Virus record (IMG/VR): IMGVR_UViG_3300021964_006196
Span: 1-20,095 of that record
Origin: a virus
Direction: 5' to 3' (one strand)
DNA length: 20,095 nucleotides
Positions within the stretch are counted from its first letter, which is position 1; the number at the start of each line of letters is the position of its first letter. Positions 1-16,561 of the stretch are shown piece by piece. Under the pieces are notes generated by a model that was not told the origin of the DNA, made no database searches, and saw only the letters and a list, made by a program, of their open reading frames with translations. A program made the position numbers and the translations under genes.

Positions 1-746
1 TTGACAACAGTGATAACTGGTGGGATTCATTTGAAAAACTATTACCATTCTTTAGACGTGTAGAGTTTGCGGGTGGCGAACCGTTAATGGATCCGTATCA
101 TTACAAGATACTAGATAAACTTGCACAGTATGGCGACCAAATAGAGTTGAAATATGCTACAAACGGTACTACGCTAGGTATAAAAGGCGGACGCACTATA
201 CACGACTATTGGCCTAAGTTTAAAAGCATTGCTGTAAACGTAAGCATAGACGGTATACACGATGTCTACGAATACATTAGAGGCAACGGCAAGTTTAGCG
301 AAATAGAAGAAAACATCAAAGTGTTTAAAGAGTTTCCTAATGTAAGCAGAGTAGTTGGTGCATTTACTGTACAAGCAAATAACATTATGCAGATTGACAA
401 AGTTATTGATTACTTTATTAATGAGTTAGGTATTGTGTTTTACTCGCATCGTGTAAACTATCCAATGTCGCTTTCTGCACAAGTACTGCCTCCAGAACTA
501 AAGAAGCAGGTTGTAGAACGTTTAGAACAAATGAAAACAGAAGTTTTAGAATATCCTCTAGTACAACAACATAAACTATTAGAGCAAGTTACACTACAAC
601 AGATACAAGACAATATCAACTTCTTAGAAGCAAAGTGTATGTACGAAACACATTGGAATGACTGCGTAGAGTTTAACAAGCGTTTAGATGCAACTCGCGG
701 ACAAGATTTCCTTGCTACTAATCCGGAGTTTGCTGATTATGTTTAA
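1..746 (+). CDS. Radical SAM protein, 5'-truncated by window edge (group A)
   Basis: The reading frame is open from base 3 to the TAA at 744-746 and begins outside the window. An ATG at 87 lies downstream of the core motif and is not the start. The visible part begins just before a GGEP motif (within VEFAGGEPLMDP), the SAM-amino-group-binding strand of radical SAM enzymes. It continues with TNGT and SIDGI..VYEYIRG, both typical of the core barrel. The CxxxCxxC iron-sulfur motif must lie upstream of base 1. The C-terminal tail (LDATRG, then NPEFADYV) matches the tails of the proteins at 4691-5803 and 7786-9198, so I place it in group A, whose other members carry an N-terminal auxiliary cysteine set. 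Its last 8 bases overlap the next gene (ATGTTTAA). The substrate is unknown. Confidence 0.9.
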   Translation, partial: DNSDNWWDSFEKLLPFFRRVEFAGGEPLMDPYHYKILDKLAQYGDQIELKYATNGTTLGIKGGRTIHDYWPKFKSIAVNVSIDGIHDVYEYIRGNGKFSEIEENIKVFKEFPNVSRVVGAFTVQANNIMQIDKVIDYFINELGIVFYSHRVNYPMSLSAQVLPPELKKQVVERLEQMKTEVLEYPLVQQHKLLEQVTLQQIQDNINFLEAKCMYETHWNDCVEFNKRLDATRGQDFLATNPEFADYV

Positions 747-1548
747 TCTAATATTAACAAACGGTAATGAAGATGTTAGCATACCTTTCGTAGTAAGAGA
801 TACTGCTATTGCTAACAAGTGGTTTGAAGAACTGTGTCAACATTATGACTTGTTTGAAACAGATAGATTTACTAACTGGGGTACACATAATCTAATACCA
901 GAACTTAATGAGTGTATTACTAGAATAAATCAACACGGAGTTTACATTGATAGATATATTAGCAGTGCAAGTACTGATATTCAAGGTGATCTAAACTACC
1001 TACACAAGTTCTTTGAAGACCTACGAGGTGATGTTAATACAGGCACAGAATGGTTTAACAATGCTCCTAAAGATATACAAGAGTCTGTTGAACGTTTCAA
1101 CATATTAATACACAAACTAGAAGCAGAACTAAGGACAAAGAATCATCCTACAGTAGTTGTTACATTTAAAAATCGACCAATAGTTTATCTTACAAACGAA
1201 GATATGAAATATTTTACATTTCGTTGGACACACGGTACAGTTTACATCAACTATTGCCAGGTAGGAAAAACAGTATTAGATGTTTTTAAAGATAAAGATA
1301 GCATTGCCGAAGGTGTACGGCCGCAAGAGTATTACAGTGCAGACTTTATGGTTAAGTTTGGACCTACTATACCTTACTGGCAATACATATTAAGAAAGAT
1401 ATACATAAACTTTTGGCTTACACGTCAAAAGTTTGATTTTAAACATAATAACTTAGGAATGATACCCGTTGCAGACTTGCAACATAAAGTAGATATGTCA
1501 TTTTTAAAAACGTTTAATAAAGTTAAGGGTGTAGAATGTATAAAGTAG
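739..1548 (+). CDS. Protein of unknown function between radical SAM genes
   Basis: This 269-residue protein is not recognised. I chose the ATG at 739, which overlaps the preceding stop as ATGTTTAA with GGAG at 725-728 ahead of it. An in-frame ATG at 688 would add 17 residues lying wholly inside the previous gene. The protein is soluble-looking, with no signal peptide or membrane segment. The N-terminal half looks helical (HKFFEDLRGDV, FNILIHKLEAEL). The C-terminal half looks strand-rich, with TVVVTFKNRPIVYL followed by YCQVGKTVLDVFKDKDS and YYSADFMVKFG. It contains only three cysteines and no iron-sulfur pattern. It sits between radical SAM genes on both sides with translational overlaps (8 bases before, 13 after). 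It could therefore be a substrate, scaffold or partner of those enzymes. That is inference from position only. Confidence 0.88.
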   Translation: MFNLILTNGNEDVSIPFVVRDTAIANKWFEELCQHYDLFETDRFTNWGTHNLIPELNECITRINQHGVYIDRYISSASTDIQGDLNYLHKFFEDLRGDVNTGTEWFNNAPKDIQESVERFNILIHKLEAELRTKNHPTVVVTFKNRPIVYLTNEDMKYFTFRWTHGTVYINYCQVGKTVLDVFKDKDSIAEGVRPQEYYSADFMVKFGPTIPYWQYILRKIYINFWLTRQKFDFKHNNLGMIPVADLQHKVDMSFLKTFNKVKGVECIK

Positions 1549-2444
1549 AAAGTCGTTGGGATCATCAAGACAGTATACACGTTGAATGGAATATAGGTAA
1601 ACGCTGTAATCTAGACTGTACATATTGTCCTGCAGAAATACACGATAACTTTAGCCCACACACCGAAGTTAAAGTTATGACAGACGCTATTGATGCACTT
1701 GCAGAAATAGGTAAACCTATACGATTAAGTCTAACAGGCGGAGAACCTTGTGTACATCCCCATATTATAGACATAGTAGATCATGCTGTTCAGCGTTTAG
1801 ACTGGGTTAACATTACAACTAACGGAACACTACCACATAAACTGTACGGCAGACTACCAGTTAATCATTATGTGTTTAGTTTACATGTAGAAGATGACGA
1901 CAACTGGGAACGTTGTTTGAACAATGTACTATACTGGACGCAACTAAACGAAATGGAAAGAGGAATACCGTTTCAAGTTAATCTAATGGCACATCATGAA
2001 CATATGGATAGAGTAAAACGCTGTGCTATCTTGTTTGACGGTCATAATATTCCATTTGTAGTAAGGCGTATACGTTGGACAGAAAAGCACGATTGGTTTG
2101 ACGACATGCGTTATCAACCTAAAGACTTACAATGGATACTAGATCAAAAGTCTACAGCCAAGCCAAACTGTGTAGTAGACGATGACGAACTAGTACATGC
2201 TAATGATATTATTAAAGAACAACGAAATCAGTTTGAAGGATGGTCGTGTGCTGCTGGAATAGAAAGTTTAATGATAAACTGGGACGGTGAAGTACATCGA
2301 GCTACATGCAGAGTAGGTGGGAGCTTGGGTAACATATACAAAGGAGACTTTGAACCTCCAGAAGATTGGGTTACTTGCACACGCAAATGGTGTACTTGTG
2401 CTGCTGACATTCCCTTAACAAAGGTTGCAGATGCTACAGACTAG
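1536..2444 (+). CDS. Radical SAM enzyme with C-terminal auxiliary cysteines (group B)
   Basis: A complete 302-residue radical SAM protein. The 4Fe-4S motif is C24-x3-C28-x2-C31 (CNLDCTYC) and GGEP is at 68-71; ITTNGT follows. After the barrel comes an auxiliary-cluster region: C238 (in GWSCAAG), C258, C281, C286 and C288, spaced C-x19-C-x22-C-x4-C-x-C. This resembles SPASM/twitch domains, which bind extra iron-sulfur clusters in peptide- and sugar-modifying radical SAM enzymes. The residues after the core cysteines (AEIHDNFSPH) resemble those in the proteins at 2431-3492 and 5796-6830. The ATG at 1536 overlaps the previous gene by 13 bases, with AAGGGTG just upstream as a possible ribosome binding site. 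The substrate cannot be assigned. Confidence 0.93.
   Translation: MYKVESRWDHQDSIHVEWNIGKRCNLDCTYCPAEIHDNFSPHTEVKVMTDAIDALAEIGKPIRLSLTGGEPCVHPHIIDIVDHAVQRLDWVNITTNGTLPHKLYGRLPVNHYVFSLHVEDDDNWERCLNNVLYWTQLNEMERGIPFQVNLMAHHEHMDRVKRCAILFDGHNIPFVVRRIRWTEKHDWFDDMRYQPKDLQWILDQKSTAKPNCVVDDDELVHANDIIKEQRNQFEGWSCAAGIESLMINWDGEVHRATCRVGGSLGNIYKGDFEPPEDWVTCTRKWCTCAADIPLTKVADATD
2420..2424 (+). promoter_or_regulatory. Ribosome binding site deciding the start at 2431
   Basis: AAAGG lies 6 bases before the ATG at 2431, inside the 3' end of the preceding gene. From the alternative TTG at 2425 there would be no spacer at all, so this site favours the ATG. Confidence 0.6.
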
Positions 2445-3492
2445 TGCTATAAATCTAACAGGTCCTGAACGCTTAATGGTTACATGGGACACAGGACGCA
2501 GATGCAACTTTGATTGTAGTTACTGCGAAATAAGTCGTCATGATAACATAAGTTCTCCTCACAGTTATGAAGAACTGTTGCGTACATTTGAGTTTGTAAA
2601 AGAGTATACCAGCATATACACAGATCTAGTTAACATAAACTTTACAGGCGGCGAACCTACAGTTAATCCTGCATTTTGGCAACTAGCAGAACACATTAAC
2701 AATACAGAAACACGTTTTAGATTAAGTTTAACAACTAACGGTGCTTGGCATCCTAAGAACACTGACCGTATAGCAGAACTATTTGAAGGTGTAACTGTAA
2801 GTTATCACACAGAGGGTCATGCTAAACTAAAACAACAAACGCTGGACAACATCAAACTGTTACATGCTAAAGGTCTGTGGTTACAAGTCAATGTAATGCT
2901 GCACACAGACAACTGGGCAGAAGGTGTACAAGTTTGTGAAGAACTAAAAGAGTTAGGTATTAAACACAATCCTCGTCCTATAGGTGACGGCAACATAGAA
3001 CGCAAAGGTTGGTTTCCTGACACAGACGGAAGTTGGCGTAGGACAACACACGATTATACAGACGAACAGCAAGATTGGTTTTACAGTTATACCAATGTAG
3101 CAAAACCCAGTGAAGGGACCAAAGCAGGAACAGAACTAGGACGTAAATGCTGTGGTGGTCGTTGTTTACAAGGCAAAGTAAATGACAAATGGCAACCAGT
3201 TGAGCTAGTTGATACACATTTTAAAGGGTGGTTTTGCAGCGTCAACAAGTACTTCTTACACATCGATCAACACACGGGCAATGTGTATCACCATCAGACT
3301 TGTCAAGCACTACACGACGGTCTTAGAGGCCCTGTAGGCACCCTTAAAGACACTGATAGTATACTTGCTTATGCAAACGCAAACAAAGATCGTACAATAG
3401 TATGTCCTAATGATCGCTGTGGTTGTGGTATGTGTGTGCCTAAGGCTAAAGAGTTATCCGACTATACAGCTATACTCGCCAAAAACATCTAA
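2431..3492 (+). CDS. Radical SAM enzyme with extended cysteine-rich C-terminus (group B)
   Basis: A 353-residue radical SAM protein. The core motif is C25-x3-C29-x2-C32 (CNFDCSYC), with GGEP at 73-76 and LTTNGA after it. The C-terminal part is rich in cysteine: a CCGGRC patch at 240-245, GWFC with C269, C291, then C325-x4-C330-x-C332-x2-C335 followed by VPKAK. This could hold one or two auxiliary clusters. The same landmarks recur in the protein at 5796-6830, so the two are clear paralogues. I prefer the ATG at 2431: AAAGG at 2420-2424 lies 6 bases before it. A TTG at 2425 would add two residues. The gene overlaps the upstream gene by 14 bases. Its 3' end overlaps the opposite-strand gene at 3454-4698 by 39 bases, tail to tail. 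Confidence 0.93.
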   Translation: MLQTSAINLTGPERLMVTWDTGRRCNFDCSYCEISRHDNISSPHSYEELLRTFEFVKEYTSIYTDLVNINFTGGEPTVNPAFWQLAEHINNTETRFRLSLTTNGAWHPKNTDRIAELFEGVTVSYHTEGHAKLKQQTLDNIKLLHAKGLWLQVNVMLHTDNWAEGVQVCEELKELGIKHNPRPIGDGNIERKGWFPDTDGSWRRTTHDYTDEQQDWFYSYTNVAKPSEGTKAGTELGRKCCGGRCLQGKVNDKWQPVELVDTHFKGWFCSVNKYFLHIDQHTGNVYHHQTCQALHDGLRGPVGTLKDTDSILAYANANKDRTIVCPNDRCGCGMCVPKAKELSDYTAILAKNI

Positions 3493-4698
3493 GAACTTTT
3501 TCTCTCTACGCTTATCATATTCTGATACAAACAAGTTAAAGTCTTGCAACTGTGTTTCTGTAGGTTGCTTATCAAACTCTGCCAGTACAAAATCAAAACG
3601 CTGAACTGTTTCTCTGTTAAAATGTTTTTTAAGTTTTTCGCGACTTGCTTCTAGTACGGGTCTCCACACTTTTGGAGCCAGTGATACATGTAAAAAGTTA
3701 GGATGTCTTACATAACTGATACTAAGTGTAACTCGGCCGCACTCTTTTTTAAGAGCAATCATATCGTCTAAGAATCTAGAAAAACTAGTAATACTTAATA
3801 CGTTGTACGCACACATTAAGTTTAATCTTAACTTAGGTAATGCAGATAATACATAGTAACAGTTTAGCAACCATTCTCGATAGTTTAATCCGTCACGAAC
3901 ATACTCTGCTTGTCCGCCATAACTTTCACCGCTAGTTGCAATCTCAACACGTTTAACACTCTTTTGTACTTTTTTAAGCAGTTCAATAAAGTTAGCAATA
4001 ATATGTTTTGGTGCACCTAGGTTGCTGTTGATTACAACTGTAAGTTTTTTATTAGGATGATCGGCAATGTAATCTAAAAGTTTTTCAGTGTGTCTACTCA
4101 GCATAGGTTCGCCACCAGTAATCCGAAGTGTATGCAGTTTGTCATACATAGTAGGCAGGTATTCCCAGAACGCTTCGATGTAAGGATTGTGTTCTCTATC
4201 TAGTATTTGTTTTTCGTGTATTTGATTATAACTGTCTGAAGTAGGGTATGCACCAAGGTTGGATATTTCGCTAGTCCACAAACTGCTAAACTGCGGACCA
4301 CAGTATGCACACTTAAAGTTGCACACGTTTGAAAAACTAACTTCAAGCATTGTAGGATCGTATCTATCAGTGGCAATAATATCTTTACGATACGGCCAAC
4401 TGTCACGCTTCTTGCTCATTAAAACACGATCACTATATTTTTCTGTTTCTTCTACACGCCAACAATAATCACATTCGCTAGGACGTTCTCCATTGAGCAT
4501 TTGATTTCTAACACTGCGTTTGTATGAGCTATTGTGCAATGCACTAGGATCTGCTTGTACTTCTTCAACAGGAACAACGTGCGGATTAGGATGATGACAA
4601 CTGTGATTCTTTCCTATGCCTAAATGCATTGTGCTGTTGGTCCACTTTGCTAAACATAGACTTTCGCCTAGTTTATTTTTTACATACCAGTTAAACAT
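3454..4698 (-). CDS. Radical SAM protein with N-terminal twitch-like cysteines (group A)
   Basis: A 414-residue protein with auxiliary cysteines before the radical SAM core. The N-terminal set is C15 (LCLAKW), C34 (HSCHHP), C76 and C79 (ECDYCW), which fits an N-terminal twitch-type iron-sulfur site. The core motif is C126-x3-C130-x2-C133 (CNFKCAYC) and GGEP is at 195-198. It is closely paralogous to the protein at 15179-16561: both have PSALHN, NPY..A.WE, LRITGGEP and a tail with EYDKRR/EHDRRR. That tail match supports the TAA at 3454 as the true end, although the last 39 bases lie opposite the 3' end of the gene at 2431-3492. The ATG at 4698 overlaps the upstream gene as ATGTTTAA and has GGAG (CTCC at 4706-4709) 7 bases before it. 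It is the last gene of the leftward run. Confidence 0.93.
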   Translation of the reverse strand: MFNWYVKNKLGESLCLAKWTNSTMHLGIGKNHSCHHPNPHVVPVEEVQADPSALHNSSYKRSVRNQMLNGERPSECDYCWRVEETEKYSDRVLMSKKRDSWPYRKDIIATDRYDPTMLEVSFSNVCNFKCAYCGPQFSSLWTSEISNLGAYPTSDSYNQIHEKQILDREHNPYIEAFWEYLPTMYDKLHTLRITGGEPMLSRHTEKLLDYIADHPNKKLTVVINSNLGAPKHIIANFIELLKKVQKSVKRVEIATSGESYGGQAEYVRDGLNYREWLLNCYYVLSALPKLRLNLMCAYNVLSITSFSRFLDDMIALKKECGRVTLSISYVRHPNFLHVSLAPKVWRPVLEASREKLKKHFNRETVQRFDFVLAEFDKQPTETQLQDFNLFVSEYDKRREKKFLDVFGEYSCIVG

Positions 4699-5803: not shown

Positions 5804-6830
5804 ACTTTTGCATTATCCTAATATAGTCTGTTTTGTCTTTTGCTTTTGGCGCACATATGCCACACCAACATCTTGATTTTTTACAAACAATAGTATCTGT
5901 TTTTCCTACACGCTGTAATATAGAGTTAGTGTCTTTAAGATTTCCTATAGGACCCACTTCACCATCCCAGTTCATGCGACAGTCTTTGTTAGTAAAAACT
6001 TCGCCAGTAGTTTGTCTAATATACAAAAAATACTTGTCAACACTACAATGCCAACCCTTAAAACGATTGTCAACATATTTTGTACATCCTGTATTGTTAC
6101 ACATTTCTTGTCCGCCGCAGCAAGCACGACCTTGTGATGATAAATCAATGCCGCCAGTAAGTACTGCTGCTGCCATCTTTAAAGCACTTACAGATTCTTT
6201 GCCAGTTAGATATGCTGCTTGTTCTTTGTTGTATTTGAAACGCCAATCAAACCAATCATGATCTATTTGACGCTTTTCATATCTAATATTATTCATTTCA
6301 CAAAACTCTACCATGTTAACACAAGTATCCCAATGCTTAGGATGCATAATAATACTAACATGAAAGTTTTTGTTTTGCTCTTGCAAGTATAGTAGGTTTT
6401 CTCTTACTTGTATATGCTGTTTAGGTAATGCTTCTGCATGAAAGCTAACTGTAAAGTATTCTAATAAGTCTACTACTTTAGCCCATAAGCGTTTACCTAC
6501 TACTGCGTTTGTAATAGTACCTATGCTTAGGTTCCAATCTAAACCTTCTTTCTTTTGTTTTGCATACTCTAGTATTTCAAGTATATCAGGATGGAATAGA
6601 CTTTCCCCACCTAGTATGTTTAGACTTGCTTGCTTGTGCTTGCGTGACTGCATTTGTATGCTAACATAGTCTACAATAAAGTCAAGTGTTTTTAAACTAT
6701 CTTCAAGTGACGGATGAGGTATGCTGTTGTTATGACCATCGCCGCAGTAACTACAGTCAAGATTACACTTTAGAGTGCTTTCCCACTCTATGTGAAAGTA
6801 GTTAGGTTCTACTGTGTCTAAGAAATCCAT
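5796..6830 (-). CDS. Radical SAM enzyme, paralogue of 2431-3492, with GGES motif (group B)
   Basis: A 344-residue protein. The core is C22-x3-C26-x2-C29 (CNLDCSYC). The usual GGEP reads GGES (74-77), a tolerated but uncommon change. The C-terminal half repeats the landmarks of the protein at 2431-3492 in the same order: RACCGG, a further cysteine patch, RFKGWHCSVDKYFLYI, GPIGNLKDTNSIL and C316-x4-C321-x-C323-x2-C326 followed by APKAK. The two genes lie on opposite strands near the convergent junction at 3.5 kb, so they are diverged duplicates rather than a recent tandem copy. The start overlaps the upstream gene by 13 bases and its stop overlaps the downstream start by 8. The substrate is unknown. 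Confidence 0.93.
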   Translation of the reverse strand: MDFLDTVEPNYFHIEWESTLKCNLDCSYCGDGHNNSIPHPSLEDSLKTLDFIVDYVSIQMQSRKHKQASLNILGGESLFHPDILEILEYAKQKKEGLDWNLSIGTITNAVVGKRLWAKVVDLLEYFTVSFHAEALPKQHIQVRENLLYLQEQNKNFHVSIIMHPKHWDTCVNMVEFCEMNNIRYEKRQIDHDWFDWRFKYNKEQAAYLTGKESVSALKMAAAVLTGGIDLSSQGRACCGGQEMCNNTGCTKYVDNRFKGWHCSVDKYFLYIRQTTGEVFTNKDCRMNWDGEVGPIGNLKDTNSILQRVGKTDTIVCKKSRCWCGICAPKAKDKTDYIRIMQKYE

Positions 6831-7789
6831 TTGTTACATACCACTTCTTCATTACATCCACAAATACGTTTTGTGCAAGTTACAGGCTCTATTCTAGGAC
6901 TAAAGTTTTGTATAAAGTTTAAATCGTAGATATTATAATGTGTGTCAGCACCGTACAGCACTTGTTGACAGTTTCCAGTTATTCTACCATCGCCGAATAT
7001 TTTGAGTAAGTCAACACCTAAGTTGCACTGCCAGCCTTCGAAATAGTTTAAGTTGTTTCTTGTTATCCAACTATCGTTGTCAACAGTAATAACTTCACCG
7101 TCTTGTTGTGTTATTTCTACTCGTGTTTGTTCTTTGTTAACTGTGCTGTGATACCAGTCCATGTCAGGATACTGTTTAATAGTATCATCAAAATATTTGA
7201 GTTGTTCGTCTGTGTATCTGTGCATGCCGCCAAAGTGTACAATCTTTGCAATGATCGGCCATTTGTGCTTTGCATTATTTTTTAAGTATTCTACGTTGCT
7301 CACACACTTGTCAAAGTGATAAGGATCTATTAGTACATCTGCATTTACAAATACGCCTCGTTCATATAATAAGTCGCAAACTTTTATGATCTTGTCTAGT
7401 TTTGCATACTCGTGATGTACGCTAATACCTACATTGTCAAAGTTGTGTGCTTCACGTTTCCACCAACTTAATGCTTTACTACCATTTGAACTCATTTCTA
7501 TTAGTGTACCAAACTCTTGTTTTAAGTATGTACACAGTTCAGGCAAGCCTTTCCACAGTGTAGGTTCACCGCCAACAAAGAAAATGTTGCTTTTAGGCTT
7601 ACCGTTGTTACGATAATGTTCTAATAGGTGTCCTAGATTCTGTTTGACTATGTCAATATCAGGCCAAGGCTGATCGCCTTCGTTACTGCCCGGAAAACAG
7701 TAGTGGCATTTATGATTGCAGAGATTGCCTAGCATATATTCTATGCGTAGCGTATCACTAGGCTGATTATTCTTTACTCTTACAATCAT
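6818..7789 (-). CDS. Radical SAM enzyme with C-terminal auxiliary cysteines (group C)
   Basis: A 323-residue protein. The core is C24-x3-C28-x2-C31 (CNHKCHYC), followed by FPG; GGEP is at 73-76 and SSNGS follows. Auxiliary cysteines are at the C-terminal end: GWQC, a second cysteine 19 residues on, then C305-x4-C310-x-C312 and C318. The LG..CN..C.YC.P signature and the strand-plus-FEGWQC layout resemble the protein at 11647-12660, so I group these two. The start is ATG at 7789 in a 4-base ATGA overlap with the upstream stop, a classic translational coupling arrangement. The only strong purine run upstream (GGAG) is about 14 bases away. Confidence 0.93.
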   Translation of the reverse strand: MIVRVKNNQPSDTLRIEYMLGNLCNHKCHYCFPGSNEGDQPWPDIDIVKQNLGHLLEHYRNNGKPKSNIFFVGGEPTLWKGLPELCTYLKQEFGTLIEMSSNGSKALSWWKREAHNFDNVGISVHHEYAKLDKIIKVCDLLYERGVFVNADVLIDPYHFDKCVSNVEYLKNNAKHKWPIIAKIVHFGGMHRYTDEQLKYFDDTIKQYPDMDWYHSTVNKEQTRVEITQQDGEVITVDNDSWITRNNLNYFEGWQCNLGVDLLKIFGDGRITGNCQQVLYGADTHYNIYDLNFIQNFSPRIEPVTCTKRICGCNEEVVCNKWIS

Positions 7790-9198
7790 AGCAAATGTGC
7801 TAACTCCGGAAATACTTTTGCTGCACTCACACCTCGAATAGCATCTAGTTTGTTTGTGTACTCTTTGAAGCCGGGTAGTAAGTGGCTGTTATCTTGTGCA
7901 TCCATGTGATTAAGAACTGCTTCCCAACGTTTCCAACCGTATGGATTGTGTTTCCAAAAATCGTCATCTTGTCTGTAGTTGTTCCACAGCCAGTCTTTAA
8001 AGTCCATAAAACGTTCACGCACTTCTTGCTTATCTTCTAATGGTAGAATCTGTATGCTTAAAAACGTAGGAATGTATAATAAGTGCATGTTGACTAAACC
8101 GCCGCCCATTTGTGTTCCGCCTGGAACAGTGCCTACATTTAGTTTTTTAAACCCACTATCTAGTTTCCACTTCATAAAGTCTGGCAAATGTTTTACATTG
8201 AATATCTGTATTGCTGTTGCTAGACTTGTTTGTATGTTGTCTGGAGTGTTATCAAGCATATGTAAAGTTTTTTCTACAGTTTCAAAGTCTGTAGGGTAAC
8301 GTATGTATTCGTCACGTTCATGACTTGCATCCATGCTGATAGCAAACTTAACTTTTCTAAACTTGCTCCATAGTTCAATCAAATCATCATCGACTAGCAA
8401 TCCGTTAGAGTTATAACGTAACAGTATTTTGTCTTGATAACCTTGACGTACTATTTCTTCAATAAACTGTTTGTGTTCTTTGATCATTAAAGGCTCGCCG
8501 CCTGCAAAGTACACTTGTCTTAGGTTAGGAATCTGAGCATACATTTCTTCCCAGAATGTATCCTTTTCATGCCACTTATTATTAAACTCTTTTTTATCCC
8601 ACTGCATCTGCTGTTTAACAGATTCGTTATCAAGTTGTGGAAATAGTTGCTGCCAATCTTTAACCCATTTTGAACTATCATGCGGACTGCACATTACACA
8701 CTTAATATTACAAGTATGTCCTAATCGCAAGTCTAAGTATTTTAAGTTTTCAGGAACGGTTCCGTCTTCTCGTGTTTGGCGTACTAGTTCAGGAATGTCT
8801 ACACCATCTTCGTACCATGTACCGCTTTCCCATACACGTTTACTTGCTACACCTTTAGACTCTTCTTCAAAGCACTTACGACAACTAGCAGGTATCTCGC
8901 CTTTGAGCATAGTTGTGCGTACACTTCGCATGTAGTCATTGTTCCATGCTTCCATAGGTGTTTCACGACCAAAGTTTGCAGGCTTGCCGTTTTCCATTTT
9001 AACAAGTCCTACTTCGTGATCATTACCTGCACCACTTGCGTTTGCACTACAGCATAGTCGCATGTCGCCGTTAGGTCTTGTAGCAAAGTGTATCCAGGGT
9101 AGTACACAGAAAGTAGGCGTACCTGACTGTTGTTCTATGATACGCTGATACTTTCCTAGTTGTGTATCCTCTGGGTGATACCAATACTTATTCGACAT
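7786..9198 (-). CDS. Radical SAM protein with N-terminal twitch-like cysteines (group A)
   Basis: A 470-residue protein from the ATG at 9198. This start has AAGGAG 7 bases upstream, the best ribosome binding site in the window. An upstream in-frame ATG at 9261 would add 21 residues buried in the previous gene and is not preferred. The N-terminal auxiliary set is C31 (FCVLPW), C49-C50 (RLCCSA), C106 and C109 (SCRKCFEEE). The core is C163-x3-C167-x2-C170 (CNIKCVMC), with GGEP at 233-236, then YNSNG and SMDASHERDEYIRYP. The tail (LDAIRG, then FPELAHLL) matches the partial protein at 1-746. It is the longest of the single-domain radical SAM proteins here. The gene follows the PP-loop fusion with an 11-base overlap. 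The substrate is unknown. Confidence 0.93.
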   Translation of the reverse strand: MSNKYWYHPEDTQLGKYQRIIEQQSGTPTFCVLPWIHFATRPNGDMRLCCSANASGAGNDHEVGLVKMENGKPANFGRETPMEAWNNDYMRSVRTTMLKGEIPASCRKCFEEESKGVASKRVWESGTWYEDGVDIPELVRQTREDGTVPENLKYLDLRLGHTCNIKCVMCSPHDSSKWVKDWQQLFPQLDNESVKQQMQWDKKEFNNKWHEKDTFWEEMYAQIPNLRQVYFAGGEPLMIKEHKQFIEEIVRQGYQDKILLRYNSNGLLVDDDLIELWSKFRKVKFAISMDASHERDEYIRYPTDFETVEKTLHMLDNTPDNIQTSLATAIQIFNVKHLPDFMKWKLDSGFKKLNVGTVPGGTQMGGGLVNMHLLYIPTFLSIQILPLEDKQEVRERFMDFKDWLWNNYRQDDDFWKHNPYGWKRWEAVLNHMDAQDNSHLLPGFKEYTNKLDAIRGVSAAKVFPELAHLL

Positions 9199-11062
9199 TG
9201 TTTTGCTCCTTAGCCCAGTTGCGTTCTTGACACCAAAAGCACTCTCCGCACTCTGGCACATACTTTCCTTGCATATAGTTTTTGTAGTCTAAATGTTCAA
9301 AGTCACCTTCGCAACTACGTGTAGTATGAAACAAGTCCATAATGTCGTTGTCAATGTATTGTTTTACAATCCAATCTTTTTCAACATACAAAAAAGGATG
9401 ACATGCTAATGTTCCTTCATGCTTTTTAACTAGTTCGTTAGCATCAGGATATTCTACATCTCTGTCAGGCATTCCTTTACTAATACTAGTATCACTAGGG
9501 TTTTTAGTTTTTGCGCCAAACCAGGCATCAAACTTATGCTCGTTAGCAAGCCATTCGGCATGAGATCTAACAATGATTTGATCTCCGCTTCTAATGTTAC
9601 CATACTCGTCTATAATGTGGGCGCCTTTATCACTGTACTCTAGTTCTGGTGGTACAAAGTTTTCATGGCGTACAAAGTTTATATTTGGGAAACGTGTTCT
9701 TAGCCAACTGAACACTCTAAAGCTATCATAACGTTGCCACGGTCTAGTTTTCCATAATCTAATATGACTAATCATATGGAAAGTAACTTGTTGATCAGGT
9801 TCTACAAAACTTGCAAGTAGATATGCTAACAATGCACTATCTGCGCCACCGCTTAAACTAATACCTACACTAGTCCACTCTTTATCAAAAGGAATAAACA
9901 AGGTTCCTGTTTTCTTAAACTTAGTCATATCAAACTCACCATTTAAGTAAGCATGATTAACTTCATTAATAAGTCCTTTTGGTCTTACTTCAATCTGCTC
10001 TTCGATTTGATCTGTAGGCTTTGAAAGATTGTTTTCTTTTAATACTCCGCATGTTCTAGCACACTTAATAAGTTTATGTTCACCTTCCCAATACTTGTGC
10101 CATACGTTTTGCCATATATCAGAGTTTATAATATCCTTTACTGATGTGTTTAACGCACAAGTGTCACCCAGTTCTGCAACTAGTTCTTTATGCTGGTCTA
10201 ACATTTCTTCCATAATGTGTTGTGTATTAGGCTGTTCATATGTTAAGTTATACGGAACTGCTCCTAAAAAGCAACACGGATAAACATTACGGTAAGCATC
10301 AATGTAAATCTCTTTATTACGCAATACTGCGCACTCGATCTTAGATTCTTTTACAATAGTTTTATAGTTGTCTATTACTTCTTGCGTTACATAACTTAGT
10401 TTTGACCCAGTTGGTGCTTCTAGATAATCTACAGTATTTCCGTCTTTGTCGTATACTGGAAACTTGTCATCTGCAATAAATCTTGCACTATTTTTGTGAT
10501 GGAATAAACTAAATCCCATACGCTCTGCTGTTTCTTTTGCTTTGTCAACTTGATGTTCATTATGTTTAAAACGTATAAACGCCCATTCTGCTGTGCCGCC
10601 AGCATCAATAAATGCTTGTGCATTAGCAATAATCTTGTTATAGTCAGTACCGATGCGATATTTGCTGTGTGTATCTTCTAAACCGTCAATAGCAAAAATA
10701 ACAGCATGTCTGTTAGGCATTACTCTGGCAAGATCTCTCCACCAATCTAAACTTCTAGCACTTGCGTTTGTATGTACACGAATATAAACATCAGGATTTA
10801 CTCCTGCTGCATATTCTATCATGTCTTTTAGGTCTTGATTAACAATAGGATCTCCATAGTTTCCGCAAAAGTAAAAACTTTTTACTTGCATTAGCACTTC
10901 TGGAGACATTATTTGTTTAAACTCGTCTAGTGTCCAATCTTTGCCATTAATAAGAGGGTTGTCTTGTCCGCCGTGATAGTTGCGGCTGCACATTGGACAA
11001 CTTGCTTGACATCTATTAGATATTTCTAAATGTATTTGTCGTAGCTCACTAAACTTAAACAT
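9188..11062 (-). CDS. Radical SAM / PP-loop ATPase fusion protein with QueC-like cysteine cluster
   Basis: A 624-residue two-domain protein. Residues 1-340 are a radical SAM enzyme: C18-x3-C22-x2-C25 (CQASCPMC), GNYGDP at 67-72 in place of GGEP, then FAIDGLEDTH. SPASM-like cysteines follow at C244, C263-C264, C334 and C338. Residues from about 390 to 624 form a PP-loop ATPase domain with SLSGGADSALLAYLL (P-loop SGGADS at 404-409). It ends with C584 and C605-x2-C608-x2-C611 (ECGECFWCQER). QueC, the PP-loop enzyme that makes preQ0, has a similar C-terminal zinc-binding cysteine set, so this half may be QueC-like. The radical SAM half is not a QueE. Some PP-loop enzymes adenylate a carbonyl group to introduce nitrogen or sulfur; the fusion suggests coupled steps on one substrate. 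GGAAG precedes the ATG at 11062, which overlaps the upstream stop as ATGTTTAA. Confidence 0.93.
   Translation of the reverse strand: MFKFSELRQIHLEISNRCQASCPMCSRNYHGGQDNPLINGKDWTLDEFKQIMSPEVLMQVKSFYFCGNYGDPIVNQDLKDMIEYAAGVNPDVYIRVHTNASARSLDWWRDLARVMPNRHAVIFAIDGLEDTHSKYRIGTDYNKIIANAQAFIDAGGTAEWAFIRFKHNEHQVDKAKETAERMGFSLFHHKNSARFIADDKFPVYDKDGNTVDYLEAPTGSKLSYVTQEVIDNYKTIVKESKIECAVLRNKEIYIDAYRNVYPCCFLGAVPYNLTYEQPNTQHIMEEMLDQHKELVAELGDTCALNTSVKDIINSDIWQNVWHKYWEGEHKLIKCARTCGVLKENNLSKPTDQIEEQIEVRPKGLINEVNHAYLNGEFDMTKFKKTGTLFIPFDKEWTSVGISLSGGADSALLAYLLASFVEPDQQVTFHMISHIRLWKTRPWQRYDSFRVFSWLRTRFPNINFVRHENFVPPELEYSDKGAHIIDEYGNIRSGDQIIVRSHAEWLANEHKFDAWFGAKTKNPSDTSISKGMPDRDVEYPDANELVKKHEGTLACHPFLYVEKDWIVKQYIDNDIMDLFHTTRSCEGDFEHLDYKNYMQGKYVPECGECFWCQERNWAKEQNNVE
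9206..9211 (-). promoter_or_regulatory. Strong Shine-Dalgarno site for the gene starting at 9198
   Basis: On the minus strand this reads AAGGAG, 7 bases before the ATG at 9198 and inside the 3' end of the fusion gene. It decides the start in favour of 9198 over the in-frame ATG at 9261, and it shows that the translation machinery here recognises canonical Shine-Dalgarno sequences. Confidence 0.75.
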
Positions 11063-11657
11063 GTTTTCTTCCTATAATCATATAACGTTGATACTTAGGT
11101 AACTCCATTACACCTTTCCACATAGGTGTAATATTGCTCATTTTAACAAAATCATCTAAGTCAACTGAACATCGTATGTGTTCTTCTAGCTCAAAGTAGT
11201 TATTACTCTGCAATACTATGAGAGAGCTGTCTGGCTGATTGTTTAACCATTGCTCGTATTGTTCTTGTGTAACGTGTTCACAACTTGTATTGATAACAAT
11301 GTCAGCAGCTTCCATATGATAGACCATATCCTCTGTTACTGCACGAAACATACCCCTCATTTCGTATGCTTTATTCATTGTATTTGCAGTTTCTTCGCAT
11401 ACAGGGTCAATATCTACACTTGTGATTCGTCCAACATTAATGCGGCTATTAAAAATAAGACTAGCAAGAACTCCATTCCACCCTCCATATATAACAATGT
11501 TATTACGATATTGACTAACATAGTTTTCAAGTGTTTCTATTAGCCATTGCTTGCTGTGTATTTGTCCTTTCCAGAAACTTTCAAGTGTACGATATCGATC
11601 TTCGCTATTGCGAATAGCGTCCATCCAGTATAATACGTCTTCTAGTTCAACTTTCAT
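11055..11657 (-). CDS. Methyltransferase-like Rossmann-fold protein
   Basis: A 200-residue protein from the ATG at 11657, chosen because AAAGG (CCTTT at 11664-11668) lies 6 bases ahead of it. A longer start at 11687 would add ten residues inside the previous gene. Features fit a class I SAM-dependent methyltransferase fold: a glycine-containing motif I (IVIYGGWNGVLAS, residues 54-66), an acidic motif II strand end (TSVDIDP, 79-85), and a motif IV-like strand DIVINTSCEHV (119-129). The first loop, GGWNG, departs from the usual GxGxG, so SAM binding is probable rather than certain. There are no membrane segments or obvious target-recognition domain. It lies between two radical SAM genes with 11-base and 8-base overlaps, so it probably acts in the same pathway. 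The methyl acceptor is unknown. Confidence 0.85.
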   Translation of the reverse strand: MKVELEDVLYWMDAIRNSEDRYRTLESFWKGQIHSKQWLIETLENYVSQYRNNIVIYGGWNGVLASLIFNSRINVGRITSVDIDPVCEETANTMNKAYEMRGMFRAVTEDMVYHMEAADIVINTSCEHVTQEQYEQWLNNQPDSSLIVLQSNNYFELEEHIRCSVDLDDFVKMSNITPMWKGVMELPKYQRYMIIGRKHV

Positions 11658-12660
11658 TTTTAGCCTTTGGTATTTTTGAATCTGCACTACTTACACAACT
11701 AGGTGTAATGCATGTTTTTGGTTTATCAAACAGTTTAAAACCTTCTGTAACAGTACCTAGTGGTTCATCGTGACAACTATAACTACGTTTTACTTGATTT
11801 TCACGTATAACTATTCCTTGATAGCCTGCGTTACAAGTCCAGCCTTTGAACTTGTTAAATCCAAAAGCATTTAACCGCTCTGCTTGATCTAAGTTATATT
11901 TGTTTCCGCTACGGTCTTGTAGTTCAACTTGATATAACGGTATCAACTCTTTGTATTCGTCTGGGATTCTTTGTGGGAATCCTGTTTGCATGATTGAGAT
12001 TTGCTCATCTGTGTAGCCTCCAACCACGCTTGTGGCGGTATCATTGGACTGTGGTTTGAGAGTAACATTGATACCTCTGGCGGCAAATCGTTCAAGGCGT
12101 TCGTAAAGCTCTTGAAACCTTTCTGGAACCATAACTTGATTGATTGTAACAAAGGTTCCTCCTTTCATTAACTGTAAACACTTGTCTCCAAACTCTTGCT
12201 CGTTTGCAAACTCGTCATGAAAACTTGCGGTTACACTTCTACGTTGCAAAGTACTTGTTGCATCTAACCACTTTGCCCACCATTTGCTGCCAGGACTTAG
12301 ATTTGTGGTCATGTGTATACTTTGATATTCGGGTGCTGTATCACTACAGTAATACTCTATAAGTTCCCCAAAGTATTTATAGGCTGTAGGTTCGCCACCA
12401 CTAAAACTAAAATGAAAGTTTTTAAACCCATTAAGCTGTGCTTGGTACTTTATATTGTCTATTGTTTGTTTATATACATCTAAAGTTTGATGATCAGGCT
12501 TATCTGATCTAGCATACGGCCAACAATAGCTACAGTTGTAGTTACAAAATCTACCTAATATCCAAGAGACTGTAAAGAGATCTGTGTTAAGCAAGGTCTT
12601 TTGACCAAACTTAACAATATCATCGAACGGTATTTCTTGAAAGTTAGCTTCATTTGTCAT
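11647..12660 (-). CDS. Radical SAM enzyme with incomplete auxiliary cysteine set (group C)
   Basis: A 337-residue protein. The core is C39-x3-C43-x2-C46 (CNYNCSYC), followed by WPYA; GGEP is at 88-91 and TTNLSPGSKWW follows. The C-terminal region has GWTC, a cysteine 20 residues on, then C317-x4-C322. Where relatives continue with C-x-C, this one has C322-V-S324, so at least one auxiliary ligand is missing. It still ends in IPKAK, like the VPKAK/APKAK of the group B pair. The ATG at 12660 has no Shine-Dalgarno sequence. It lies directly at the predicted transcription start of a consensus-like promoter, so the message may be leaderless. It is the first of eight tightly overlapping genes running left to 3454. 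The substrate is unknown. Confidence 0.92.
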   Translation of the reverse strand: MTNEANFQEIPFDDIVKFGQKTLLNTDLFTVSWILGRFCNYNCSYCWPYARSDKPDHQTLDVYKQTIDNIKYQAQLNGFKNFHFSFSGGEPTAYKYFGELIEYYCSDTAPEYQSIHMTTNLSPGSKWWAKWLDATSTLQRRSVTASFHDEFANEQEFGDKCLQLMKGGTFVTINQVMVPERFQELYERLERFAARGINVTLKPQSNDTATSVVGGYTDEQISIMQTGFPQRIPDEYKELIPLYQVELQDRSGNKYNLDQAERLNAFGFNKFKGWTCNAGYQGIVIRENQVKRSYSCHDEPLGTVTEGFKLFDKPKTCITPSCVSSADSKIPKAKNES

Positions 12661-12667
12661 TTGTTTT

Positions 12668-12696
12668 ATTATAGCACACTCTTTTAGAAATGTCTA
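12668..12696 (-). promoter_or_regulatory. Sigma70-type extended -10 promoter for the leftward radical SAM operon
   Basis: On the minus strand, TAGACA (12696-12691; 5 of 6 matches to TTGACA) is followed by a 17-base spacer and TATAAT (12673-12668), with TG one base before the -10 (TGcTATAAT). The -35 lies just inside the 3' end of the dehydrogenase gene. Usual spacing puts the first transcribed base at about 12661, one base before the ATG at 12660. The near-consensus elements make this the clearest promoter in the window. Host RNA polymerase recognition is assumed, not shown. Confidence 0.7.
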
Positions 12697-13913
12697 GTAT
12701 TTCCGTAATGTATTACTGTACTTGCATTACTCGAAAACTTACGCCAGGGGTCTACAACTACACTACCTGCTGGTATTACACAGTATAGCATGTCTGTATT
12801 ATCACCTTCTTCTTGCATATACTTGTAAGTTGTACTAGCACTATGCGCCATAAGCATTACACATGGTTCCGATGGCTCATTGTTATCACCTGTTAATGGA
12901 TCTATATAAGTAGGTGCAAAGCCGTGTTTTTTGCAATAATGTCCTACTAAGATACTATAACTTCCATCTTCATACGGAACGCCAGGTTTATACGCCTTTC
13001 CGTGAATGTAAATGGGCATGTTCTTTTCATTGGCAATGTCTACTAGTTTAAGTGCAAGATTTTCTGCCTGTATTTCACGAGCATTCATAATGCTGTCAAA
13101 CAAGTCGTAACCTAAACCCAGTTCGTGTGCCATATAACGCAATGCAATATTATCACGAGGATGACATGCACCACCGTCGCCCATACCTGCTGTCATATAT
13201 TGTGGACCCATAATACGCATTGTACTTTGTGCTAGTGCATCTGTTACAACGTCAACATTAATGTTACCCTGTTTTTCAGCAACATCTTGTATCATATTAA
13301 CTAAGCCAATCTTAGCACTGATAAATGTATTGTAGAAAACTTTAATACATTCACACTCGTCCCAAGTACCAACTATATAACGAGGATCGTTTTCCATTAC
13401 AGTCTTATAAAAATCTACAAGCTGTTTAGCATCACCTGTTTCAGTACCATCTTCTGTACCAATCATTACCATTTCAGGATTAACCATATCCCATGCTACA
13501 CTGCCCATAGCAATCAAGTAAGGGTTGTAAACAAAACGTGTGTTAGTTACTAGCGGTACAAAGTGACTTCTAGTAGTACCTGGTAATACTGTACTAATAA
13601 GGACTAGTAACTGATCTTTGTTCATGTACTTGTTTGCTTCTTCTAGTACATGTTGAACAATAGCGTATCCAAAGTCTTTAGGCTCTAAATGTGCAGTGGG
13701 TGCTCTACCATCATAATCCGGATCGTGAGGAGTAGGCACTGCAACAAATACAATATCTCTATCTTCTACGCATCCTTTTATAGTAGGAAACATTGTAACA
13801 TCATTACTTGTTCTTTTAGCAATATCATATGCTGTTACGTTATGTCCTTTTTGTGCTACTGCTTCAGCACAAGGCATTCCGAGTTTTCCAACGCCAATAA
13901 AGCCTATGTTCAT
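12684..13913 (-). CDS. UDP-glucose/nucleotide-sugar 6-dehydrogenase family protein
   Basis: A 409-residue NAD-dependent nucleotide-sugar dehydrogenase relative. Family members oxidise UDP-sugars twice, from alcohol to acid (for example UDP-glucose to UDP-glucuronate). Visible landmarks: Rossmann GxGxxG (G7, G9, G12), ISTVLPG with the conserved Thr108, CIKVFYNTFISAK with Lys191 and Asn195, the catalytic Cys250 in GGACHPRD (247-254) with Asp254, and GKAYKPG in the C-terminal domain. Length is normal. Oddly, the family's NPEFL.EG segment reads NPYLIAMG (130-137), so both usual glutamates are gone (Tyr132, Met136). The Arg of the usual D.RESS segment is also absent (PYEDGSYS). This suggests an altered substrate or reaction. 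AGGA lies ahead of the ATG at 13913. A 23-base gap with a promoter separates it from the radical SAM run. Confidence 0.92.
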   Translation of the reverse strand: MNIGFIGVGKLGMPCAEAVAQKGHNVTAYDIAKRTSNDVTMFPTIKGCVEDRDIVFVAVPTPHDPDYDGRAPTAHLEPKDFGYAIVQHVLEEANKYMNKDQLLVLISTVLPGTTRSHFVPLVTNTRFVYNPYLIAMGSVAWDMVNPEMVMIGTEDGTETGDAKQLVDFYKTVMENDPRYIVGTWDECECIKVFYNTFISAKIGLVNMIQDVAEKQGNINVDVVTDALAQSTMRIMGPQYMTAGMGDGGACHPRDNIALRYMAHELGLGYDLFDSIMNAREIQAENLALKLVDIANEKNMPIYIHGKAYKPGVPYEDGSYSILVGHYCKKHGFAPTYIDPLTGDNNEPSEPCVMLMAHSASTTYKYMQEEGDNTDMLYCVIPAGSVVVDPWRKFSSNASTVIHYGNTRHF

Positions 13914-13963: not shown

Positions 13964-15196
13964 ATGGAACACTTACAGGACTGGCTTAAAGATGATGATT
14001 ACTTTAGAGTTTGCCCCTCTGAAATAGGATGTTTTCATCACTACAAAAAACATCTACCGCATTTTAAAAAAGGGGTATACGACAGGATGCCCGTAATGTT
14101 CGCACACTACTCGTATAACAAAAGGTGGCTTCCTACTAGTGATGTTTTTGCAACTGTAAAACCTGAGTTTCTTGCAAAGATTAGAGCTAAAAAATGTATG
14201 TTTGTATTAGACGGAACACACGAAGGCTGGGCGCCAGAAGAACAGTCAGTAGCGATGGCACTTTATTTTAGTGCAATACGTCATAACATTGATCCTGCAA
14301 GTGTTGTATTTTTAAGTGGTAATCTTAGAGAAAAAGCAAACTTTAGATTATTCTACAATGGGCGCAACGACAGAGTTAACCCTATTAGTATTATTGAGAT
14401 TATGCACTGGGATACTTTTCAAAAAGTAATGATGACTGAAGGAAAGAAAAAGTTTGGACGCTATAACAACCTAGTACAAAACTATCAAGGTAAGTTCTAT
14501 CTAAATCTCAGTAGAAGAAAGAGATTTTGGCGTAGTTATTGTACATACAAACTACACGAAGCTGACATTGCAAAATATGGACTATTAAGTCACGATAAAC
14601 TAGATCAACGAGAATACAAAAACAACAAGTTTTATACTGCTGAAATGCAGGAGTTCATGTCAAAAAACACTCCACTTACAGTTGACACTGATGACTTTGA
14701 AACTAACTGGGCATACGATCTCGGAGTAGGTCTACATAGTCAAGTACTGTTTAACTTAACTTCAGAAACACTACAAAGTGACTGGAACGAAACAAGTTTG
14801 TTTTATAGTGAAAAAACATTTAAGCCTATTGTACAAAAAACTCCAGTTATTATTTGGGGGCAAACAGGGCAAAACTATAATCTACAAAGATTAGGTTACA
14901 AGTTATACACTGATTGGTTTGACTACGACTTTGACTTTGAACCAGATATCATCAAACGATGGAATAAGCTAGAAAAAGAACTAGTGCGTGTATGTACTAT
15001 GCTGTCTAAAATGACACGTACACAGCAAATAGATTGGTCAATACAAAATACAGAAGTGTTAGATTATAATCACCATCGTGCAGACTATAATGATTATACT
15101 ATTAGCGAGTTTTTAAGATTTGTTGATCACTGTCAACTAGTGCTAGCAGGAAAGCAGCCCTCAGATGAGGACTACGTTTCAAAAAATGTTTCTTAA
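13964..15196 (+). CDS. Glycosyltransferase-like protein (GT-B / GT10-like C-terminal motif)
   Basis: A 410-residue cytoplasmic protein. The best clue is the C-terminal block SEKTFKPI (282-289), TPVIIWG (293-299) and then LQRLGYKLYTDWFDYDFD. An E-K-x-x-K/A-P-x-x-x-x-x-P-V/F-I-x-x-G arrangement of this kind is found in fucosyltransferase-like GT-B proteins and in many marine phage proteins annotated as glycosyltransferases. The preceding FNLTSETL fits the nucleotide-sugar site. The N-terminal 250 residues show FVLDGTHEGW and KFYLNLSRRKRFWR but no family I can name. It is the only plus-strand gene in the right half: divergent from the nucleotide-sugar dehydrogenase and overlapping tail to tail by 18 bases with the radical SAM gene at 15179. 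It may consume the dehydrogenase product, which is inference. The acceptor is unknown. Confidence 0.85.
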   Translation: MEHLQDWLKDDDYFRVCPSEIGCFHHYKKHLPHFKKGVYDRMPVMFAHYSYNKRWLPTSDVFATVKPEFLAKIRAKKCMFVLDGTHEGWAPEEQSVAMALYFSAIRHNIDPASVVFLSGNLREKANFRLFYNGRNDRVNPISIIEIMHWDTFQKVMMTEGKKKFGRYNNLVQNYQGKFYLNLSRRKRFWRSYCTYKLHEADIAKYGLLSHDKLDQREYKNNKFYTAEMQEFMSKNTPLTVDTDDFETNWAYDLGVGLHSQVLFNLTSETLQSDWNETSLFYSEKTFKPIVQKTPVIIWGQTGQNYNLQRLGYKLYTDWFDYDFDFEPDIIKRWNKLEKELVRVCTMLSKMTRTQQIDWSIQNTEVLDYNHHRADYNDYTISEFLRFVDHCQLVLAGKQPSDEDYVSKNVS

Positions 15197-16561
15197 CTCA
15201 GGAAATGTTTCGTCAAAGTTTGTATTTCTTCTGCGGTCATGTTCTTTAAACCAAGCAACAAAATCTTTACGTCCTATTTCTAAAGTTTTATCATCGTAAG
15301 TTGTAGTACGCATATAGTCAACTACACGTCTAAACTTTTCATATTCTAGTTTAGTAAACTTATTAACATCGTAGTCATCTAGATTAGTCTTAATAAACTC
15401 TAAATGACTTTCCATATAACTCATAAAACTTTTAGGAAGTATATTCATATCATACTGAATAGGTTCTTTTAAATACGGAGTATCAAATCGTATTCTTCTA
15501 GTACCAGTTTGATATTTTTCACGCCATTCTAAAAACTTTTCTAATAAAGACTGGAACGTTGTAACACTTAGAACATTAAATGTAACCATAAAAGTAATAG
15601 GCTGATCTGTTTCGGTCATCCAAGTGTCAAAGTTCTTTTCCCATACAGTTAGGTCTAGATTAGTTCTAATATATTCTGCAGGCTTTCCCCAAGTGTCTAA
15701 ACTTGTAAAGAGTTTAAACTTTTTAATCTTATTTTCTTTTACTAGCTTGTTTACTTTATCCGCTAAACGCTTTACAAGTACATTTTTAACAGCAAGATTA
15801 CTGTTAATGTTTATTTCGAGATTTGGCTTAGGATTTGCATCAAGATCTTCTAGCAGTCTCCAAGTACTTTGTTGCAGCAACGGTTCGCCACCAGTAATGC
15901 GTAATATGTTAAGTGTCTTACTAACTTCCGGCCACCATTCCCACCAGGCTTTTACATAAGGATTTTCTTCTTCCTTTTTGTATATACGCATACGACGAGT
16001 ATCAAAAGCGTGATTTTGTACCATATCATACGGGCCAAAGTCTTCTATTTCTTTGAAATAGCTACTACTTGCTTTAGGATGACAATATCCGCATCGCAAG
16101 TTACATTCGTTACCAAACGATACTTCAATGTATTCAGGATTAATATCATACAACCAATCATTTGCAACAATCTCGTTCAATCGATCTTTTGTATAAATGC
16201 CTGCATTACGTTCGTGTCTATCGCTTACATAGTCTTTGCCCATACACTCAATGTTCCAGCAATATTTGCATCCGTCTGGTTGCTTGCCTTCTAGCATTTC
16301 TTTTCGTTGTGCTTTCTTTTCCATTGTATTATGTAATGCACTAGGATTGTTTTCTAGTTCATGCAACGGAATCATGTGAGGGGCAGGATGATAACAACTG
16401 TGCGTTTCGCCTGTTTGTAAATAGATAGTAGTATGATGCCATTTAGCTAAACAAAATGTTGGAGAAACTGTGTCTGTAATCTGCTTTACTTCGGTCATAC
16501 GATCAATAGGATCTTTAACAATCTTTAATCGACGTGCAAGTTTTTTAACTAGTTTATTCAA
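15179..16561 (-). CDS. Radical SAM protein with N-terminal twitch-like cysteines (group A), TTG start
   Basis: The frame gives 460 residues from a TTG at 16561, or 439 from the ATG at 16498. I favour the TTG because AAGGA lies 10 bases before it and it forms an 8-base overlap (TTGAATAA) like other junctions here. The ATG has no good ribosome binding site. The extra N-terminus is lysine/arginine-rich (LVKKLARRLKIVK). The auxiliary set is C37 (FCLAKW), C56 (HSCYHP), C98 and C101 (GCKYCW). The core is C153-x3-C157-x2-C160 (CNLRCGYC), with GGEP at 224-227. It is the close paralogue of the protein at 3454-4698, but lies about 10 kb away in the glycosyltransferase run, so radical SAM chemistry and glycosyltransfer may be linked. 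Its 3' end overlaps the opposite-strand gene by 18 bases. Confidence 0.9.
   Translation of the reverse strand: MNKLVKKLARRLKIVKDPIDRMTEVKQITDTVSPTFCLAKWHHTTIYLQTGETHSCYHPAPHMIPLHELENNPSALHNTMEKKAQRKEMLEGKQPDGCKYCWNIECMGKDYVSDRHERNAGIYTKDRLNEIVANDWLYDINPEYIEVSFGNECNLRCGYCHPKASSSYFKEIEDFGPYDMVQNHAFDTRRMRIYKKEEENPYVKAWWEWWPEVSKTLNILRITGGEPLLQQSTWRLLEDLDANPKPNLEININSNLAVKNVLVKRLADKVNKLVKENKIKKFKLFTSLDTWGKPAEYIRTNLDLTVWEKNFDTWMTETDQPITFMVTFNVLSVTTFQSLLEKFLEWREKYQTGTRRIRFDTPYLKEPIQYDMNILPKSFMSYMESHLEFIKTNLDDYDVNKFTKLEYEKFRRVVDYMRTTTYDDKTLEIGRKDFVAWFKEHDRRRNTNFDETFPELRNIF

Follow-up and report, generated by a model that had tools for sequence, protein, structure and literature searches.

A radical SAM half and a divergent QueC-superfamily PP-loop half, joined in one T4-like phage fragment, belong to a cassette common to many viral contigs

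What do a radical S-adenosylmethionine (SAM) enzyme and a PP-loop ATPase do when a phage encodes them in one chain, and is that chain the unit that matters? The question is raised by a frame in the window analysed here, a stretch of 20,095 bases from an IMG/VR virus record (IMGVR_UViG_3300021964_006196) that represents part of the genome of an uncultured T4-like phage. The original prediction, made from the DNA alone, was that the fused enzyme makes a radical-derived product and then activates it with ATP, perhaps as a route to a modified base, sugar or peptide. We find that the fusion unites, in this one contig, two genes from a larger cassette, and that the cassette, not the fusion, is the unit of function. 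The broader proposal, a radical step together with ATP activation, thus survives, whereas the fusion as the functional unit does not, the genes being members of a cassette and fused only once. We tentatively favour two phage tailoring steps, radical chemistry and an ATP-driven amide-type ligation within the larger cassette, with a protein or peptide a likelier target than a free base.

The frame is a single intact open reading frame (ORF) with an ATG start and 0 internal stops, and the cysteines and the SGGADS motif named in the original prediction all lie in it at their predicted positions. In family profile searches, the N-terminal half matched radical SAM proteins (Pfam, 4.4e-6; phrog_21308, 2.7e-21) as well as many NCBIfam maturase models, the latter far under their cut-offs, and the C-terminal half gave weak matches to PP-loop families. 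Numbers within the PP-loop domain become full-length numbers by adding 365, so that C219, C240, C243 and C246 are C584, C605, C608 and C611, and S39 is S404. The parts of the frame are the following.

9188-11062, minus strand: fused ORF, 624 amino acids, with a predicted twitch/SPASM-type radical SAM half and a QueC-superfamily PP-loop half (ORF, domain models, family matches)
9983-11062, minus strand: radical SAM half, residues 1-360, family rSAM0 (59-sequence alignment, AlphaFold2 model, PDB matches)
10988-11011, minus strand: CX3CX2C radical SAM cluster motif (C18, C22, C25), invariant in 59/59 sequences
9905-10003, minus strand: linker, about residues 354-386, with an in-frame ATG at 9928; mostly missing from split relatives
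9188-9904, minus strand: PP-loop half, residues 387-624 plus stop, divergent QueC superfamily (alignments, AlphaFold2 model, match to QueC 3bl5, PF06508)
9836-9853, minus strand: PP-loop motif SGGADS, residues 404-409, invariant in 51/51 sequences
9230-9313, minus strand: zinc-type cysteine site C584-E585...C605-x2-C608-x2-C611 with invariant CE, 51/51 sequences

The AlphaFold2 model of the radical SAM half, built with 59 sequences, reached a predicted local distance difference test (pLDDT) score of 94.0, and its matches in the PDB were led by SuiB (19.6), BlsE (18.8), SkfB (18.6), MoaA (18.0) and anSME (17.9). Besides the three cysteines of the cluster motif, C244, C263, C264, C334 and C338 are invariant in 59/59 sequences, and the GGE-like motif reads C66-GN-F/Y-GDP, again with an invariant cysteine. 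The pairs C244-x18-C263 and C334-x3-C338 presumably correspond to a site of the kind seen in BtrN, whose twitch auxiliary site we take them to resemble. Judged from the modelled fold, this half is of the twitch/SPASM type, its conserved fold carrying both CX3CX2C and, toward the C terminus, auxiliary-cluster cysteines. The original prediction had held that it carries such cysteines and is not a QueE, which agrees with our results: no QueE model appeared among its family matches, and relatives encode a genuine, separate QueE.

The PP-loop half, modelled by AlphaFold2 with 51 sequences (pLDDT 91.8), aligned best in VIA-align with Bacillus subtilis QueC (3bl5; Z 14.6, 3.6 A over 179 residues), followed by QueC 2pg3 (14.1), Cap9 9nto (13.5), TilS 1ni5 (13.2) and QatC 9y01 (13.1). 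Since rows within 1 Z count as tied, the fold does not cleanly separate QueC, Cap9, TilS and QatC. The comparison with PP-loop folds that the original prediction had proposed nevertheless put QueC on top, with TtuA, NcsA, LarE and TilS 1-3 Z units lower, and Foldseek in BFVD returned mostly phage 7-cyano-7-deazaguanine synthases. PF06508 matched 27/29 members (best 2.3e-6); against the QueC family cut-off of 22 bits, the window's member scored below (13.7) and one relative, in G006, above (24.6). Invariant in 51/51 sequences are SGGADS, HPF(x)4K (K197) and CE...CxxCxxC, together with R134, TRSCEG and the four cysteines C219, C240, C243 and C246 (PP-domain numbering). This conservation in both families indicates that the motifs noted in the single frame are not there by chance, and the fold together with the invariant zinc-type cysteines bears out the assignment of this half to the QueC type.

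Within that type the half is divergent. In an hhalign comparison with Escherichia coli QueC, VPGRN pairs with RSGDQ (the VPxRN position reads SG[D/N]) and YPDC pairs with a variable stretch ending in the invariant R169; YxQxHxxE is absent from the PP-loop alignment, and the zinc-region motif is C(x)20CxxCxxC with invariant CE, not the canonical C(x)8CxxCxxC with CY. In E. coli QueC, mutagenesis has identified Y35, R99, Y131 and Y189 as essential residues (PMC13329287). Because residues essential there are replaced here, preQ0 synthesis by this half appears unlikely from its motifs. The same study reported CE and PF(x)4K for Cap9, and HP and a long first spacing for QatC (PMC13329287); the Cap9- and QatC-like traits of the phage sequence are suggestive parallels only.

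Fusion of the two halves is confined to the window. A scan of viral contigs with the full protein yielded at least 598 relatives, and most of the best 80, which were inspected for coverage, align to residues 1 to about 360 only; a scan with the PP-loop profile yielded at least 579. In split relatives the PP-loop half is a separate nearby gene of about 240 amino acids, and in the closest ones, L001, L003 and L009 among them, the two genes share a 4-base overlap, ATGA. The domain-architecture search suggested in the original prediction, run on 117 PP-loop loci, found the window alone to be fused: none of the other 116 loci, all from relatives and all with a PP-loop gene, holds a frame that matches both halves. 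In L039 and L040 the rSAM0 gene is duplicated in tandem. Scanned phage isolates gave no match to the PP-loop family above chance, and among about 85,000 species genomes of bacteria and archaea a scan turned up a single match, short and doubtful, and no confirmed one.

The original prediction had coupled absence of the fusion from all relatives to an assembly error; the absence was found, and the error was considered and rejected. The joint in the window is a continuous coding frame with a codon-position GC content similar to that of its flanks, and the linker is in frame, coding-like in composition and about 30 residues long. A single-base slip cannot explain the fusion, since split relatives lack these residues. 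The PP-loop half may still be translated separately, given the in-frame ATG at 9928. As a natural fusion, the frame offers a ready single-chain construct for asking whether both enzymes share a substrate.

What is conserved is the cassette. In a set of 44 loci, retrieved with the PP-loop profile and flanked by 8 kb or more on either side, the radical SAM family of the fused partner is present in 44/44, and further radical SAM families occur in 44, 43, 43, 32 and 24 of them, so that about five such families form the core of a cassette common to many viral contigs. An Asp/Asn-beta-hydroxylase-like family (PF05118, best 7.6e-7; PDB 7v4f, 4.4e-19) and a kinase-like family (weak match) are each found in 41/44 loci, and a probable methyltransferase of 200 amino acids in 31/44. 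The core family c7 (about 229 amino acids; for example L010:20254-20943, minus strand) has a weak likeness to protein kinase (TTK) and to the kinase part of Kae1-Bud32. Clusters c9 and c12 have the look of 2-oxoglutarate-Fe(II) oxygenases by the HxD...H motif alone, with no profile match in support. Gene order differs among loci: the PP-loop gene lies mostly upstream of, and coupled to, the twitch radical SAM family c4, and is less often coupled to rSAM0 (the fused partner) or c1. As the fusion joins just two members of a cassette whose gene order varies, it is not the defining feature.

Mirror-tree comparison gave low correlations of pairwise distances among cassette genes (0.1-0.5), the PP-loop family tracking its fused partner no better than other members, with distances near saturation and paralogues possibly mixed. 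The T4-type late promoter motif TATAAATA occurs once in the window, under chance expectation; it stands at a fixed 12-13 nt before the starts of the hydroxylase-like family c8 in 7/60 distinct upstream regions, where it may mark a late promoter, and permutations of the motif give similar counts, against which this number is not significant. In the nearest large relative (G001, 159 kb), the cassette adjoins tail-fibre genes, with baseplate genes further along.

The window itself is dense in such genes, with eleven PF04055 radical SAM matches within its 20 kb (the fused gene and ten others), several neighbours being NF033640 twitch enzymes with E values of about 1e-86 to 1e-118. The genes around the fused frame are listed here.

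3-746, plus strand: radical SAM, truncated by the contig end; clusters with family c4 (44/44 loci)
1536-2444, plus strand: radical SAM, family c3 (43/44 loci)
2425-3492, plus strand: radical SAM, family c13
3454-4698, minus strand: twitch radical SAM, NF033640
4691-5803, minus strand: twitch radical SAM, NF033640
5796-6830, minus strand: radical SAM
6818-7789, minus strand: radical SAM
7786-9261, minus strand: twitch radical SAM, NF033640 (E 4.8e-118), family c1 (43/44 loci), overlapping the fused gene's 3' end
11055-11687, minus strand: cassette gene of about 200 amino acids, probably methyltransferase-like (weak match), family c2 (31/44 loci)
11647-12660, minus strand: radical SAM, family c5 (32/44 loci)
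12684-13913, minus strand: UDP-sugar dehydrogenase-like neighbour, cluster 33 (7/44 loci)
15179-16561, minus strand: twitch radical SAM, NF033640

Related loci hold further genes. At 112.6-122.7 kb of G001 (L087-L088), a second radical SAM group follows a tail-fibre-looking ORF of 3920 amino acids. A small IF-1-like ORF (MAKDDIIEL...TKGRVTYRL) recurs in about 10 related loci. Amidinotransferase (pentein)-like ORFs appear in some cassettes (clusters 38 and 48; L177:17509-18570), and the radical SAM cluster of Campylobacter phage CP220 has genes with this annotation as well.

The likely role of the cassette is to make an unusual chemical group or to attach one. In the reading we favour, a T4-like phage would combine a QueC-superfamily PP-loop enzyme with about five core radical SAM enzymes and an oxygenase resembling Asp/Asn-beta-hydroxylases, and often with a methyltransferase-like protein. 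The radical SAM half would cleave SAM at its CX3CX2C cluster and, using an auxiliary [4Fe-4S] cluster in the twitch/SPASM-type tail, abstract a hydrogen from the substrate. The PP-loop half, presumably acting afterwards, would bind ATP at SGGADS, adenylate a carboxylate and hand it to a nitrogen acceptor in an AMP-forming amide-type ligation, its four-cysteine site having a structural role, as in QueC. Given the tail-fibre neighbourhood in G001, a virion or host-recognition protein is the first candidate for the target. A bolder version, in which the ligase is a third, phage-born type with the QueC fold, alongside Cap9 and QatC, and joins the radical SAM enzymes and the hydroxylase in giving virion or host proteins a group without precedent, strikes us as rather doubtful.

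Several observations weigh against a protein or peptide target. Enzymes acting on peptides and on small molecules (BlsE, MoaA, DesII, BtrN) nearly tie as matches of the radical SAM half; the traits in common with Cap9 and QatC may be chance or ancestral; in G003 the cassette lies about 30 kb or more from long tail-fibre-like ORFs; and a search for the precursor of a ribosomally synthesized and post-translationally modified peptide, across about 157 loci, found no small ORF conserved in more than 15 of them. The precursor may be distant from the cassette, or the substrate may be a large protein. The missing precursor and the glyco-enzymes near the window's copy also lend support to a glycan or small-molecule target, a possible but less likely alternative, in which the cassette's product is an unusual sugar or nucleotide-sugar that decorates tail, lipopolysaccharide or DNA, the radical SAM half working like BlsE, DesII or BtrN and the PP-loop half amidating a sugar acid. 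Neighbouring genes of the window and of L003 that resemble UDP-sugar dehydrogenase and glycosyltransferases, the place of BlsE among the top structural matches, and nucleotide-diphospho-sugar transferases in the related radical SAM cluster of CP220 are consistent with it. However, the sugar dehydrogenase family is present in just 7/44 cassettes, the core holds no recognised sugar enzyme, and its Asp/Asn-hydroxylase-like member suggests protein or amino-acid substrates. Together with the Cap9- and QatC-like traits and the tail-fibre neighbourhood, this core gene modestly favours protein or peptide over glycan.

The remaining alternatives concern the PP-loop half. It could attach 7-carboxy-7-deazaguanine (CDG), made by phage FolE, QueD and QueE, to a protein amine as Cap9 does, which we regard as improbable, or act as a phage QueC that completes the pathway by making preQ0 or 7-amido-7-deazaguanine, which is slightly more improbable. 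Both draw on the carrier records, which often encode FolE, QueE and/or QueD (G001 has FolE and QueE), and the search for relatives of FolE, QueD and DpdA proposed in the original prediction succeeded to that extent. In 15 records no gene outside the PP-loop family passed the QueC cut-off, and no PF01702 match to the tRNA-guanine transglycosylase/DpdA family was found, a profile that a divergent phage DpdA could escape. CE and PF(x)4K speak for the Cap9-like activity, and the nearest solved structures and weak PF06508 and TIGR00364 matches for the QueC one. Against the former, the deazaguanine-stacking Tyr and Watson-Crick Asp of YPDC are replaced at a position that is not conserved; against the latter, the zinc-region Tyr is gone along with YxQxHxxE, VPxRN and YPDC, several of these essential by mutagenesis (PMC13329287), and the gene sits in a radical SAM cassette rather than with FolE and QueE. 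Against both, 14/15 long QueE-bearing records (fragments, selected by similarity to one QueE) are without the PP-loop gene. QueE has FolE as a neighbour in 49/80 loci and a phosphoribosyltransferase in 43/80; a phosphoribosyltransferase-FolE-(QueD)-QueE module without QueC recurs in T4-like phages (L082:657-3652 in G001, L098 in G003, L181:19843-22623 in BUCT-ZZ01), and Synechococcus phage BUCT-ZZ01, with FolE, QueD, phosphoribosyltransferase and QueE, has no PP-loop or cassette match in all but its last 6 kb. The CDG module therefore has a use of its own, perhaps the turning of CDG into a nucleotide for DNA modification. With the PP-loop gene in only 1/15 QueE-centred records, we dropped the 7-deazaguanine link as main evidence; it is not supported, and neither is the route to a modified base by QueE and then QueC, to which the original prediction had likened the fusion, given the lost QueC motifs and the separate QueE. 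Least probable is a sulfur transferase or tRNA-modifying enzyme akin to TilS, TtuA/NcsA or LarE, with cysteines holding zinc or an Fe-S cluster: TIGR02432 (TilS) matches all 51 members weakly (best 1.9e-6) and NcsA, TtuA, LarE and TilS are the top Foldseek rows, yet QueC and Cap9 lead the VIA alignment, QueC has the same C-terminal cysteine site, and the TilS match of the window's member spans the P-loop start alone (residues 34-68).

Set beside known systems, the tailoring cassette that we favour has partial counterparts. Radical SAM clusters are known in T4-like environmental viral genomes (EVG), one with 12 radical SAM genes (PMC5332604), and a radical SAM cassette lies in the host-recognition cluster of pelagimyophages (PMC7029224). 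Like these, CP220 and Pelagibacter phage Mosig, the present cassette combines several radical SAM genes near tail-fibre genes in a T4-like setting; it differs in its PP-loop gene, of which no relative was found in any phage isolate, and the open-licence literature searched yielded no previous description of a phage cassette that pairs radical SAM and PP-loop genes. Vibrio phage K566 is a further isolate with a related radical SAM cluster. The radical SAM half has the barrel, auxiliary-cluster tail and cysteines of the twitch/SPASM enzymes SuiB, SkfB, anSME, BlsE, MoaA and BtrN, at about 12-17% identity, and differs in the invariant cysteine of its GGE-like motif.

The PP-loop half has the fold, SGGxDS, a lysine equivalent to K165 and the C-terminal four-cysteine site of canonical QueC (PF06508 cluster 1; 3bl5; Erwinia 2pg3), and departs from it in the substrate motifs and zinc region described above and in lying in a radical SAM cassette, not beside queD/queE. 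With Cap9 of type IV CBASS, which conjugates CDG to a protein N-terminus (PMC13279940), it has in common the fold, invariant CE, PF(x)4K and SGGxDS; it is longer, lacks YxDC and RN, differs in spacing from CE(x)6CxxCxxCxD and is phage-encoded in a radical SAM cassette, with no CD-NTase noticed close by. QatC of qatABCD (9y01, 9y02) is similar in its fold, loss of the YPDC Tyr and Asp, HP, long spacing to CxxC and multi-gene context; D(x)4R(x)7WxR, P(x)4TK and the CxxRR end were not found in the phage half, which keeps the fourth cysteine, and the QatC model NF041925 matched 1/51 members, weakly (0.0046). QueC-fold enzymes have recently been shown (Cap9) or proposed (QatC) to modify proteins in anti-phage defence, and here a divergent QueC-fold family occurs in phages, always with a radical SAM set, across hundreds of aquatic viral contigs. 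Its product, once identified, would explain why some T4-like aquatic phages give about 20 kb to radical chemistry and would provide a new ATP-dependent ligase.

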